A DNA stretch of 38,322 bases, taken from positions 1-38,322 of the forward strand of contig JAFYWC010000160.1 in NCBI GenBank assembly GCA_017546585.1. The letters are read 5' to 3'. Under the pieces are notes generated by a model. That model searched no databases and was not told where the DNA came from. It saw only the letters and a program-made list of their open reading frames with translations. Shown piece after piece: positions 2,405 through 38,279 of this stretch. Source of the stretch: Bacteroidales bacterium (lineage in GTDB: Bacteria > Bacteroidota > Bacteroidia > Bacteroidales > UBA932). Numbering within the stretch: the stretch's first letter is position 1; each line of letters opens with the position of its first letter. Both the position numbers and the translations under genes were made by a program.

Positions 2405-2716
2405 ATGAATCAAAAAGATTTTTTGATCCTGACCAAAGGCCGGGCTGTGTGCCTCTTGCTGGACACAGCAATCAGATTGCTGGCAGAGATGGACTTTAAG
2501 AACGAAGTATCAGATGCTGTACGCAATGAATGTTCTACGGATATTTACAACATCATTGTGCAGGTGGCGACAATTTCCTGCGGCAAAGACACTTGGGGTG
2601 ATGTGTATGATTTCCTGATCAGCATAGGTGTTCGCGTGTCATCCGACCTTAATCTTGAGATGATGTATATGGAATCTATATCCGAGATTAAGCCTTCTGA
2701 TGAAAGGCATAACTGA
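2405..2716 (+). CDS. Hypothetical protein in the conjugative element
   Basis: It encodes 103 residues starting MNQKDFLILTKGRAVCLLLD, mainly predicted helical, with no signal peptide, membrane segment or motif that I recognise. The ATG at 2405 is preceded by AT-rich sequence without a strong Shine-Dalgarno site, which is common in Bacteroidota. It stands alone between the degraded cargo and the candidate RNA at 2748-2939. Amino-acid composition and a clean open frame favour a real gene. Its position in front of the transfer operon suggests a link to element biology, but no function can be assigned. Confidence 0.55.
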   Translation: MNQKDFLILTKGRAVCLLLDTAIRLLAEMDFKNEVSDAVRNECSTDIYNIIVQVATISCGKDTWGDVYDFLISIGVRVSSDLNLEMMYMESISEIKPSDERHN

Positions 2717-2733
2717 TTTTCTAAAATAATTCT

Positions 2734-2741
2734 TACCTTTG
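2734..2741 (+). promoter_or_regulatory. Candidate -7 element for the RNA at 2748-2939
   Basis: TACCTTTG fits the Bacteroidetes -7 consensus TAnnTTTG exactly. No good TTTG is found at the -33 spacing (the nearest is a T-run at 2717-2720), so the promoter is only half supported. Confidence 0.45.
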
Positions 2742-2747
2742 CATCAT

Positions 2748-2939
2748 TGGTAAAAAATAACATCATCAAATATTAGCATTTGCTATTTATTCGGGCAATC
2801 TGAAACCTGAGAAATTTCAATTTGTTACGACCGGATAAGTTGGTAAATGCCTGCGCGTTTGCGTGGGCTCGACTTATCATCGTAATATGGTTTTCTCAGG
2901 ACCACAGATGCTGATAAGTTTCTGCCCACGCAATTTTTC
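2748..2939 (+). ncRNA. Candidate switch-like structured RNA before the tra operon
   Basis: Two mutually exclusive folds share one central strand. The early fold pairs GATAAGT (2834-2840) with ACTTATC (2872-2878) around GCCTGCGC (2849-2856) paired to GCGTGGGC (2861-2868), with a GTTT loop. The late fold pairs TTGCGTGGGC (2859-2868) with GCCCACGCAA (2924-2933) and ACTTATCA (2872-2879) with TGATAAGT (2912-2919), and is followed by T5. This is terminator/antiterminator geometry. In addition CCTGAGAAA (2806-2814) is complementary to TTTCTCAGG (2892-2900) in the late-fold loop, a possible pseudoknot or third competitor. No coding frame fits. It could be a leader attenuator or a free small RNA of about 190 bases, because the tra promoter lies just downstream. 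Pairings are seen; function is inferred. Confidence 0.6.
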
Positions 2940-2967
2940 GTTAAATATCCCTAAAAACCCGTAAAAA

Positions 2968-2998
2968 TTTGGAGTGTGTGACACGATGATTACCTTTG
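2968..2998 (+). promoter_or_regulatory. Bacteroidetes-type promoter of the tra operon
   Basis: TTTG at 2968-2971 and TACCTTTG at 2991-2998 are separated by 19 bases, matching the Bacteroides -33/-7 consensus. Transcription would start near 3005, about 18 bases before the traA ATG at 3023. CTGTGTAG at 2999-3006 overlaps the start site and resembles the ACTGTGTGT repeats beside the integrase. Confidence 0.8.
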
Positions 2999-3022
2999 CT
3001 GTGTAGAAATCGTGAGAGAGAT

Positions 3023-3757
3023 ATGAAGGTGTTGACATTTTTTACGGTCAGAGGTGGGTCTGGCAAGACGGTGCTGAGTGCGGCGTTTGCATCATACGTG
3101 AGTTATATTCTCGGTAAGAGGGCTATGGTGCTTGACTTTGACGGACCCGAATACAATCTATTTAATATGAGATTGAGGGAGCTGAGCCTTATGAAGGAAG
3201 GTGATGCCGAGTGCGACAGGGATGGGCTGTATATTGTGGAGAAGGTGGAGAACACCGACAGCGACAGCCTCGACAGGTTTGCAGAGAGCATCAGGAGAAT
3301 CAAGGAGCAGTTCGATTATATCATTCTGGATTTCCCAGGATCATTTTCAAAAGACGATGCCATATGCCATCTGGCTACTGCAGGAGTGATCGATATGGTG
3401 GTCATCCCTGTGGAACTGGATGCCATCAGCATTTGTTCAGCAAAGACCTTGTCGCAGATATTCGAGGAGACAGGGTTGAAGACACTACCCTTTTTCAACA
3501 GAGTGCACGGCAAGGAAGATCCTGCCTTATATGGCAGGCTGCGTGAATGGTTTGAAAGGCACGGAGTGAGAGTGTCGGAGGCTATGGTGAAGAATTCCAT
3601 TGCTATGAAGAGAGAGATGGGAGCCAAAGGGTTCCTGAGGAGCACTATATGTTTCCCGGAAAAGGAGATAAGAGCGAAGAATCCGGGCATTATTAACTTG
3701 TTTGAGGAGATTGTGAGGTATGAGGAGAGAGGAGTTCAAACGACAGAAGATTCCTGA
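3023..3757 (+). CDS. traA: Conjugative transposon TraA, ParA-type ATPase
   Basis: The 244-residue protein is of the ParA/MinD ATPase type found as the first gene of Bacteroides transfer operons. The deviant Walker A motif VRGGSGKT covers residues 9-16, with Arg10 where most ParA proteins have the signature Lys. A Walker A'-like LDFDGP follows at about 41-46, and a later segment, YIILDFPGSF, at about 95-104. ATG 3023 is chosen over the in-frame ATG at 2996, because 2996 lies inside the -7 element and upstream of the expected transcript start. The usual role is thought to be positioning or regulating transfer rather than channel formation. The next gene overlaps its last 38 bases. Confidence 0.85.
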   Translation: MKVLTFFTVRGGSGKTVLSAAFASYVSYILGKRAMVLDFDGPEYNLFNMRLRELSLMKEGDAECDRDGLYIVEKVENTDSDSLDRFAESIRRIKEQFDYIILDFPGSFSKDDAICHLATAGVIDMVVIPVELDAISICSAKTLSQIFEETGLKTLPFFNRVHGKEDPALYGRLREWFERHGVRVSEAMVKNSIAMKREMGAKGFLRSTICFPEKEIRAKNPGIINLFEEIVRYEERGVQTTEDS

Positions 3758-11628: not shown

Positions 11629-12948
11629 TTATACGGTTTTTCTATCGGAAAACTTGCTCATTGCATCTGCTTTTGTCTTGTCGGTGATAGCGATGTATGG
11701 CCGCATTGCCGCTTCGTTGGCGTGTCCTGTGATCTTGCGGATCACTGTGGTCGGGATGCCCATTTCGAGGGCGGCACAGATGAATGTTCTTCTGCCACCA
11801 TGAGTGCCGAGGACAGCCCATTTCGGATGGACTTCATCGTATCTGGCGTTGTCCTTATAGTAACTGTACTTTACCGGAGTGGTGAAACCGCATAGTTCGC
11901 AAATATCTTTCAGGTATTCGTTCATCTTCTGGTTGGATATGACCGGAAGAGCGAGATTGCCGGGATAGTTCTCATCTTCGTATTTCTGAAGGATGGTGCG
12001 TGAGTAGGCGTTGAACGGCACTTTCAGGGCACAATCGGTCTTTTCGGTGATGACGTTGATTCCGTCCTCTGTGATGTCTGTCCTTTTGAGGGCTGCCATA
12101 TCGCTGTAGCGGAGACCGGTAAAGGCACAGAAGCAGAAGAGATCGCGGGTCTTGATCAGGGATGATCGGTTCTGCACGACCTTCTTATATATCTTCCCGT
12201 TAATGTCCTTCAGGCGGACTTCCGTTCCGTCTTTAGGGACATCGAAGTTGTAGAGTCTGAGCAGTTCATCCCAGGTAAGGAAAACGACTTCTTTGTCGAT
12301 GAGTTTGAATTTAGGCTTGAAGGTGATGAAGTCGGCCGGAACTTTCACGCCGATCTCCATTGCACGACGTAAGAACCATTTGAGCATCTTCAGGTCTTTC
12401 TGAATAGAGACGTCCTTCATATCGAGTTCGGCACCTTCATAGGCGACAAATTCGCTGAGTTTGTCAGAAGTCCAGTCGGCAAAGCGTGTCTTTGCTGCGA
12501 AGGATACAAGATGCTTCCTGAAGGTATTGTGCTTCTTGATCGTGCTGTCTGACCACTTGCATTCCACCCTTGCTGTGGCTACGATCTTGTCAAAAGTCTC
12601 GTAGAAGTCGTGCTGTTCCTTCTTTGGCTTGCCGGTCTTTCCATAGAGGGTATCGCGAAGAATATCCTTTAAAACCTGCCTTGTTGTGGGTGTGCCGTTG
12701 TTGCTTGTCTCGAAAGTGCTGAAGGCCTTTGCGATAGCATCAAGTTTGTCGTTGATTTCGTTGAATTTCAAACCTTTGGCATTGACGGCTCCTTTCTTAA
12801 CTTTCTGTTTGGCGTCGAGCCAGTAATCTGGATTGATGGAGATGCCGATGGTGGTCTGGATACGGGTGTTGGCGATGTGTGCAGACATCGTGATGGGTTT
12901 TTCGCCGGATTTAAGAGGGCGAGATGATAAGTAAAATTGTAGTGCCAT
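11629..12948 (-). CDS. int: Tyrosine recombinase (integrase) of the element
   Basis: The 439-residue phage-type integrase has an N-terminal arm-binding domain of the Bacteroides type (MALQFYLSSRPLKSGEKPI, about 1-85), a SAM-like core-binding domain (about 110-215) and a C-terminal catalytic domain. Catalytic features are Arg in FTGLRYSDM (about 281), HGGRRTF (about 383-389), GHANE (about 409) and Tyr in MRPYIAI (about 418). The second box has H-G-G-R rather than H-x-L-R, as in many Bacteroidota integrases. ATG 12948 is chosen because the sequence upstream, though open, lies in the repeat array and encodes no known domain. It catalyses integration and excision, presumably at the tRNA-Lys gene 440 bases away. 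Confidence 0.9.
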   Translation of the reverse strand: MALQFYLSSRPLKSGEKPITMSAHIANTRIQTTIGISINPDYWLDAKQKVKKGAVNAKGLKFNEINDKLDAIAKAFSTFETSNNGTPTTRQVLKDILRDTLYGKTGKPKKEQHDFYETFDKIVATARVECKWSDSTIKKHNTFRKHLVSFAAKTRFADWTSDKLSEFVAYEGAELDMKDVSIQKDLKMLKWFLRRAMEIGVKVPADFITFKPKFKLIDKEVVFLTWDELLRLYNFDVPKDGTEVRLKDINGKIYKKVVQNRSSLIKTRDLFCFCAFTGLRYSDMAALKRTDITEDGINVITEKTDCALKVPFNAYSRTILQKYEDENYPGNLALPVISNQKMNEYLKDICELCGFTTPVKYSYYKDNARYDEVHPKWAVLGTHGGRRTFICAALEMGIPTTVIRKITGHANEAAMRPYIAITDKTKADAMSKFSDRKTV

Positions 12949-12970
12949 AGCGCAGTTTTTTAAGGTTACT

Positions 12971-13278
12971 ACTGTGTGTAAATCCCAACAAACTGTGTGT
13001 AAATTCTTATTAAAACTGTGTGTGTTTGGGGCTACTGCCGAAACCATCAAAAACAGGGGTCAGAAGTTGCACGAACTGTGTGTAAATTTTCTGACAACTG
13101 TGTGTAGATTTCGGGCAAACTGTGGTTAAAACTGTGTGTTGTTTTTCTGTTTTCACTGTGTGTTTTTCTTCAAATTTCTAAAGGGTTTTTCACGTTACCA
13201 AATTTTTGCAGTTTTTTGGCAAGTTTCATTCACCTCTGAAAATTTACCCACAGTTTTAACCACACTTTTAACCACACT
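12971..13278. repeat. Array of ACTGTGTGT repeats beside the integrase
   Basis: Seven copies of ACTGTGTGT start at 12971, 12992, 13015, 13075, 13097, 13131 and 13155, and a variant ACTGTGGTT starts at 13119. Spacings of 21, 23, 22, 22 and 24 bases are about two DNA helix turns. Three opposite-facing variants lie at 13246-13254, 13258-13266 and 13270-13278. TGTGGTTAAAACTGTG (13121-13136) has an exact reverse complement at 13250-13265. The array fills the gap between the integrase start and the tRNA genes, where arm-type integrase and accessory-protein sites are expected. No gene is supported in 12949-13389. Confidence 0.8.
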
Positions 13279-13389: not shown

Positions 13390-13462
13390 TGCTCCCCCAG
13401 GGGCTCGAACCCTGGACCCCAACATTAAGAGTGTCGTGCTCTACCAACTGAGCTAGGGAAGC
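13390..13462 (-). tRNA. tRNA-Lys (anticodon CTT), copy next to the integrase
   Basis: The 73-base cloverleaf has acceptor stem GCTTCCC/GGGGAGC with one G-T pair and discriminator A. Anticodon loop CTCTTAA gives CTT, and the T-arm is CAGGG-TTCGAGC-CCCTG. CCA is not encoded. The 3' trailer reads CACAAAG. It is identical in all 73 bases to the copy at 13503-13575. Its 3' end faces the integrase, so this is the probable integration target or its restored copy. Confidence 0.95.
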
Positions 13463-13502
13463 TTTGCTTGAATTGCTTCAATATGTTTGCGTTACCGCTT
13501 TG

Positions 13503-13575
13503 TGCTCCCCCAGGGGCTCGAACCCTGGACCCCAACATTAAGAGTGTCGTGCTCTACCAACTGAGCTAGGGAAGC
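13503..13575 (-). tRNA. tRNA-Lys (anticodon CTT), second identical copy
   Basis: It is identical to the tRNA at 13390-13462 over its full length, including the CACAAAG trailer, while the sequence on its 5' side differs. It sits 40 bases upstream of that copy in the same transcription unit. Confidence 0.95.
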
Positions 13576-13593
13576 AGTAATTTAAGAACTTTG

Positions 13594-13666
13594 TGATTCG
13601 CATGGGGCTCGAACCCATGACCCCAACATTAAAAGTGTTGTGCTCTACCTACTGAGCTAGCGAATC
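13594..13666 (-). tRNA. tRNA-Lys (anticodon TTT)
   Basis: Acceptor stem GATTCGC/GCGAATC is fully paired and the discriminator is A. Anticodon loop CTTTTAA gives TTT. CCA is not encoded. The trailer CACAAAG is shared with the two CTT copies, so the three genes look like tandem duplicates. It is first in the operon, directly after the promoter at 13715-13746. Confidence 0.95.
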
Positions 13667-38088: not shown

Positions 38089-38195
38089 AGTGCTGTTGTT
38101 TTGGTTATCGATTATCAGTTAGTTCCTCAAATATAGCATTATTTGCAGATATCTGGTACTGTTATATCAGGAGGTTCATATAAAATCGAGTAGGA

Positions 38196-38234
38196 GGAAA
38201 ACAAAAGTAGGTTTTCCTCCTACTTTTGTTTTCC
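38196..38234 (-). repeat. Competing hairpins in the intron domain VI
   Basis: GGAAAACAAAAGTAGG (38196-38211) and CCTACTTTTGTTTTCC (38219-38234) are a 16-bp perfect stem. An alternative 13-bp perfect stem pairs 38190-38202 with 38211-38223. Both cannot form together. Confidence 0.65.
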
Positions 38235-38279
38235 GACCTCTCACACCACCGTACATGCGGGTCCGCATACGGCGGTTCC

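Follow-up and report, generated by a model that had tools for sequence, protein, structure and literature searches.

The RNAs that come closest to the element considered here are of several kinds. In an attenuator of the trp type, segments of a leader transcript engage in exclusive pairings, 1:2, 2:3 and 3:4, the last of which is a terminator with a U-run. Riboswitches of the purine class also reside in 5' leaders; they consist of a junction and two hairpins with paired loops, with a terminator as platform. In Bacteroides, FopS (RF04319; PMC11697453) is reportedly a multi-copy family of paralogous small RNAs, and RteR is a small RNA of the conjugative transposon CTnDOT that acts on tra transcripts in trans. 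As for restriction-modification genes, to our knowledge their control is mostly known through protein regulators.

The window, that is the whole stretch of 38,322 nucleotides analysed here, carries just upstream of a conjugation (tra) operon an RNA in which four competing strands, A, B, C and T, occupy positions 2775-2939 of the forward strand; the pairings A:B, B:C and C:T are mutually exclusive. Judging from sequence comparison, this RNA is a member of a real, conserved family of structured RNAs in Bacteroidota that is not matched in Rfam. In our opinion, the family likely consists of cis-acting transcription attenuators with an aptamer-like core, found mainly in 5' leaders, and the copy in the window would belong to an accessory module composed of a 103-aa ORF and the RNA.

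The central strand of the element reads TTGCGTGGGCTCGACTTATCA at 2859-2879 and contains strand C (segment 3, 2861-2879). With a partner arm that ends at 2933 it gives a two-part stem followed by T5; this arm is strand T (segment 4, 2913-2933, with the T5 run at 2934-2938), and the C:T duplex has an energy of -29.8 kcal/mol. The same strand can pair upstream with strand B (segment 2, 2831-2856), which takes either A or C as its partner. In the window B:C (2833-2858 with 2861-2880) reaches -25.5 kcal/mol and would form an antiterminator arm. Both pairings of the central strand had been proposed in a preliminary description of this DNA, and they hold up well: none of 200 dinucleotide shuffles of 2775-2939 produced a central strand with two equally good partners (observed -25.3, best shuffle -18.7), and none of 200 shuffles matched the fold energy of 2748-2939 (z -5.7). 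Overlooked at that time was a fourth strand, A (segment 1, 2775-2794), which pairs with B in a duplex of -17.9 kcal/mol. A further segment, 2806-2814, had been said to be complementary to the terminator loop. Indeed CCTGAGAAA at these positions can pair over 9 bp without a mismatch with TTTCTCAGG (2892-2900; -12.9 kcal/mol), and the two are the loops of hairpins H1 (2802-2818, GAAA/TTTC) and H2 (2889-2903), which makes this a loop-loop pairing. A short helix, P1, joins 2798-2801 to 2906-2909. A simple terminator scan found no terminator; its rule admits loops of 3-8 bases only, and the loop of this stem is about 30.

The half-promoter formerly noted at 2734 and the tra promoter noted 29 bases after 2939 are both present. 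The first is the -7 box TACCTTTG at 2734-2741, from which transcription of the RNA would start near 2748; the second, separate promoter spans 2968-2998, with TTTG at 2968 and again TACCTTTG at 2991. We take TTTG and TAnnTTTG, the latter as the -7 box, to be the promoter consensus. A TAnnTTTG box is found upstream of 113 of 150 copies of the RNA, against 18.0 expected by shuffling.

The fold reads, in order, A, P1 enclosing H1, a long arm (P3/P4) made of B and C, H2, T and the U-run. Its conservation was examined in two alignments. In A1, which comprises 27 copies from 26 genomes and was made with MAFFT blind to structure, 94.7% of the cells are paired under the proposed fold, with both sides changed in 22 of 37 pairs; when partners are slid by one column, pairing falls to 47-48%. 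P1 is paired in 93.9% of cells of A1, with all four of its pairs changed on both sides. In A2, 71 copies aligned to a covariance model, which favours its own pairs, 94.0% of cells are paired and both sides have changed in 31 of 39 pairs; for the loop-loop helix the values are 99.8% and 7 of 7. Of the helices outside the model, H1 is paired in 95.1% of cells (A2), and A:B, which co-varies as C:T does, in 94.7% (A1) and 86.9% (A2); in 7 copies of A1 one A-U pair of A:B is replaced by G-C. For the H2 stem, likewise outside the model, only 61% is found (A2), a low count that we think comes from gaps falling inside H2. Because the stem counts so poorly, H2 rests on the loop pairing and on inspection. 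Many G-U pairs occur in the fold (A2). What emerges is a conserved folded core in a 5' leader, as is expected of a riboswitch.

The competing pairings were further examined by a swap test on 153 copies, in which each strand was offered either its own partner or partners from unlike copies of the same subfamily; similar copies were omitted and ancestry was otherwise ignored. The own partner was better for A:B in 54 of 65 copies of what we call the restriction-modification (first) subfamily and in 75 of 88 of the other, for B:C in 64/65 and 83/88, for C:T in 57/64 and 81/88, and for the loop-loop helix in every copy (65/65 and 88/88). Two control pairings, A:C and loop 1 with T, made no difference between own and swapped partners in the 153 copies (p 0.08 to 0.98). 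Since own partners win for A:B, B:C and C:T, the pairings 1:2, 2:3 and 3:4 are each maintained, and three mutually exclusive and individually conserved pairings are what one expects of an attenuator. So is a terminator stem with a U-run upstream of a gene, seen at 2913-2938 in the window and in other copies; U-runs follow T in the copies examined, some of them interrupted or absent by the rule of our script. Absence of covariation, or of conservation of the pairings, had been named beforehand as an outcome that would speak against the RNA; covariation and conserved pairings are both present in the 153 copies. Together with the lack of a match in Rfam 15, this agrees with the original idea of a terminator/antiterminator RNA of no catalogued class. 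In our view the family has a well-supported switch layout, a predicted terminator/antiterminator.

How would such a switch operate? In the nascent leader A would be the first partner of B. After C and the remainder of the core have been transcribed, B:C would win. When T emerges, either C stays with B, giving read-through and an active gene, or T captures C and A retakes B, giving termination and a silent gene. The choice would be set by some factor, either a protein or a small molecule, that makes the loop-loop core more or less stable. The controlled gene would lie about 86 nt downstream in most copies examined and would often encode a restriction-modification or an exported protein. Folding of the growing window transcript gives the same succession: A:B is formed at lengths up to 2880, gives way to the B:C core between 2895 and 2930, and is back, together with C:T, from 2935. 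According to the energy model, the B:C state is more stable than C:T in 140 of the 153 copies, hence termination may need help. The window copy is reversed, its terminated state being better by 2.9 kcal/mol. Further, T by itself folds into a hairpin with an energy of -5 kcal/mol or lower in 33 of 65 restriction-modification copies against 4 of 88 in the other subfamily (it is almost nil in the window, -1.5). Such a hairpin could terminate without C, thus the simple switch may not hold in those copies of the restriction-modification subfamily.

The family is widespread. Used as a DNA query, 2700-3060 has matches in 36 of the 299 genomes of its taxonomic family, some by short stretches outside the RNA only, and the window's own genome holds a second copy (G000:C161). 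The covariance model R1 has matches in 122 of 393 genomes at the level of the order, with up to 8 copies per genome where no more than 8 candidates per genome were scored; these copies are the strongest listed matches (to E ~1e-10), and the copies per genome are thereby lower bounds with weak members under-represented. Among 395 genomes at the level of the phylum 37 match, 34 of them outside the order. When named genomes were scanned with an exact pattern, at least 114 stretches turned up; among the matches listed are records from Muribaculaceae, Prevotella, Segatella copri, Phocaeicola faecicola and Mediterranea massiliensis, as well as from Pedobacter, Mucilaginibacter oryzae and Algoriphagus. 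The same kind of pattern found two stretches in viral contigs. All 16 pattern-found loci tested with the covariance model, 14 from the named genomes and both viral ones, match it. By DNA similarity the element has no match in phages; a Prevotella plasmid has a single match, 42 bases long and without obvious meaning. The 153 copies used remain from 155 model matches after dropping two in locus L124, one cut off and one weak. Three loci with short DNA matches and no RNA (L028, L029, L030) are in no alignment, and L032 is not in A1 and was used later. In two loci the copies are crowded: L184 has two back to back, and L124 has its three matches within 3.2 kb.

At gathering score Rfam 15 has no match over the element, either in a search of the whole window or in two sets of 18 loci. 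Permissive searches likewise gave nothing credible over the RNA, one of them returning three matches far below gathering scores. The sole FopS match in the searched loci is below gathering and lies at L253 6027-6107 (+), away from the RNA of that locus (1648-1785, -). The letters of the RNA were not found in published papers by a text search. We recognised no description of the family in passages of PMC8040213, PMC2864571 and PMC7160235, or otherwise in titles and abstract openings. Human microbiomes yielded 3161 candidate RNAs in the study PMC8040213, some of them in Bacteroidetes, and the family may be among those of its candidates that are without a function.

As to position relative to genes, 132 of 153 copies are followed on their strand, after 38-165 nt, by the start of an ORF of at least 70 codons; the median distance is 86 nt. 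A stricter test used ORFs of at least 100 codons and the 64 copies that are flanked by 600 nt to either side. Of these, 55 have such an ORF in that range and 1 has it at the mirrored place, and among 320 random points it is found for 67. Such placement suggests that members of the family act mainly as cis 5' leaders.

Two subfamilies can be distinguished by strand A, and that of the window falls into the restriction-modification subfamily. For this subfamily we scanned 60 first downstream proteins (A4), chosen by hand by strand A and cut to 420 aa. Pfam finds MmeI_Mtase in 10, EcoRI_methylase in 9, N6_N4_Mtase in 7, N6_Mtase in 7 and a C5 methylase in 3, with overlaps, and PADLOC agrees with this tally. 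In total we count 39 of 60 as methyltransferases: 25 identified individually (six of them by a weak MmeI_Mtase match, below the Pfam cut-off in five), nine of the EcoRI type from the tally, and five relatives judged by eye from their starts (L022, L025, L079, L090 and L102, the first without a Pfam match of its own). As a control we used upstream neighbours, in a grouping made by script that is slightly unlike the one made by hand (65 copies, 56 with an ORF). Among 55 such neighbours (A6) no DNA-modification methyltransferase appears in the best 25 of 62 families; a YhcG-type nuclease is found in 4 of 55. Two leaders stand before genes of another sort, a dynamin-like GTPase in L143 and a SNF2-type helicase with C3a139/DrmD-like matches in L119; the first subfamily therefore reaches beyond methyltransferases. 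In the second subfamily (72 proteins) the commonest matches are BspA-type leucine-rich repeats (8) and the Por secretion tail (5). By a crude rule a start resembling a signal peptide is found in 40 of 76 of its proteins against 5 of 56 in the first subfamily, and many of its downstream genes can be predicted to encode exported proteins.

Further elements lie between the U-run and the start codon. Restriction-modification leaders contain two pre-start stretches of this kind, D, a complement of A (the own combination wins in 44 of 53, p = 6e-5), and F, a complement of the H2 loop (47 of 53, p = 4e-8), and in the second subfamily a pre-start stretch pairs with T (41 of 62, p = 6e-4); these are statistical associations, with p values from 14 comparisons left uncorrected. 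Weaker signals are positive in the first subfamily for C (C:post, p = 0.02) and the P4 arm (P4arm:post, p = 0.01), and negative in the second for B (B:post, p = 0.02). The three complementary stretches suggest that a second fold exists, one that spans the full length and may influence translation. In the window the stretch before traA pairs with A weakly (-8.8 kcal/mol vs a mean of -16.4), and D is absent. A different addition is seen in eight loci picked for a shared motif: in six (L056, L072, L096, L100, L135, L164) the candidate cis-regulatory motifs DUF805 or DUF805b (RF03081, RF02914) lie downstream of the RNA, although in L135 and L164 it is DUF805 alone that reaches gathering score, the DUF805b match closest to the RNA being below it. 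In several of the six, the motif is located between RNA and gene, that is, there are two motifs in one leader. At gathering score neither motif is present in 18 other loci of the family.

The copy in the window is atypical in that it follows the 103-aa ORF, lacks D, and is succeeded by a traA that has its own promoter. The ORF (2405-2716, +) precedes the RNA also in G000:C161 and G288:C18; it has no match in Pfam or PADLOC, is present in 3 of 299 genomes of the taxonomic family, and has no relative in viral contigs or plasmids. In G288:C18 (L316, 4739-9171) the ORF and the RNA are followed on the same strand by a viperin-like gene (pVip), which starts 446 nt past the RNA, and by PtuA and PtuB (Septu). 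In G000:C161 the pair is found behind a candidate defence gene, PDC-S53, and G295 has, where one of its contigs ends and close to an AbiEii-like gene, a partial relative of the ORF. In the window itself an AbiEi-like antitoxin gene (524-1150, -; PADLOC E 2e-73) lies 1.3 kb upstream, and no AbiEii toxin gene was noticed beside it among the ORFs listed. It seems that the window copy belongs to a defence-type module which was placed ahead of tra. An integrase gene (11629-13047, -) with three adjoining tRNA genes (13390-13666, -) is likely the attachment region of the tra-carrying element. At the end of the contig Rfam matches a group II intron (38185-38277, -).

Does the RNA regulate transfer, as was initially suggested? 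It lies directly upstream of traA, a gene for a ParA-type ATPase that is the first of the tra operon (3023-3757, +; AAA_31 and ParA-type Pfam matches), on the same strand and 113 nt from its start; its terminator could be bypassed, and read-through from the promoter of the RNA would then add to tra expression under some condition. We regard this as rather improbable. A traA homologue at E <= 1e-20 is found in 10 of 299 genomes of the taxonomic family, and of ten such loci, one taken from each genome, only the window's own has the RNA before it; traA is served by a promoter of its own behind the terminator; and neither of the two other copies that follow a relative of the 103-aa ORF stands at tra genes, although one of them ends at a contig end. 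Other members of the family precede genes for restriction-modification or exported proteins. Because nine other traA-bearing genomes are without the RNA at that place, control of conjugation by it is not supported by the comparison. Since the tra operon has its own promoter, the window copy probably gives a separate short transcript or is a leader that lacks its gene, perhaps through loss, and is not a dedicated tra regulator.

It is possible that this particular copy is a stand-alone small RNA, which the preliminary description had also suggested. To extend that to the family as a whole is in our opinion unlikely. The terminated transcript would then be the product, and its strand A and loops would bind to mRNAs in the same or in a recipient cell, for example at the D element ahead of restriction-modification start codons. 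The window copy does have its own promoter and terminator and no gene of its own behind it, the complementarity of pre-start stretches to A and to the H2 loop is what targets would display, and the self-contained hairpin of T in about half of the restriction-modification copies would terminate such a transcript. On the other hand, the genome of the window has no further match to the complement of A, with up to 3 mismatches, outside its two RNA copies, and the spacing between a copy and the following gene of its strand is constant, as expected for cis action. We also considered a folded DNA recombination site that would mark mobile gene cassettes, like attC of integrons. Copies do lie beside exchangeable genes, in multiple numbers and some near contig ends, and they do cluster, as in L184 and L124; but a promoter box before the element, a U-run after it, the covariation of T with C and the many G-U pairs are features of an RNA, and we set this very improbable candidate aside. 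The reading as cis-acting attenuators is the one that we retain.

If one RNA leader is shared by unrelated methyltransferases (EcoRI-type, MmeI-type, N6, N6/N4 and C5), this would suggest a common signal for defence expression, and one that spans a major gut phylum. As this fold also precedes genes for exported proteins, one may ask which signal is common to both classes of genes. We put forward, tentatively and as something we doubt more than we believe, that the family is a phylum-wide RNA switch triggered by a ligand or a protein, an on/off leader that unrelated restriction-modification and other anti-phage systems adopted separately and of which free copies travel on mobile elements beside genes for defence and conjugation. 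Were this true, defence, and perhaps the entry of DNA, would answer to one shared signal at the level of RNA. Irrespective of that, the family, with about 135 nt, a loop-loop core and many natural variants, is a well-supported orphan riboswitch candidate.

It remains to set the family against the systems named at the outset. Like RteR, the present RNA is found on a conjugative element of this group of bacteria; by description the two are apart, since the present RNA is not tied to tra operons. Like FopS it forms a multi-copy family in Bacteroidetes, but FopS is a short small RNA of 71 model positions. DUF805 and DUF805b also stand just before genes in Bacteroidota; they are a separate and shorter motif and do not match over the element. 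With purine-class riboswitches the family shares the junction of two hairpins with paired loops, the terminator platform and the position in a 5' leader. It differs from them in sequence and in the order of helices, it has no Rfam match, and its downstream genes encode defence or exported proteins and not one metabolic pathway. With trp-type attenuators it has in common three exclusive pairings, of which the last is the terminator, and the U-run. No conserved ATG or frame of a leader peptide over segment 1 was seen by eye in the upstream stretches, and segments 2 and 3 form instead an arm of the conserved loop-loop core.
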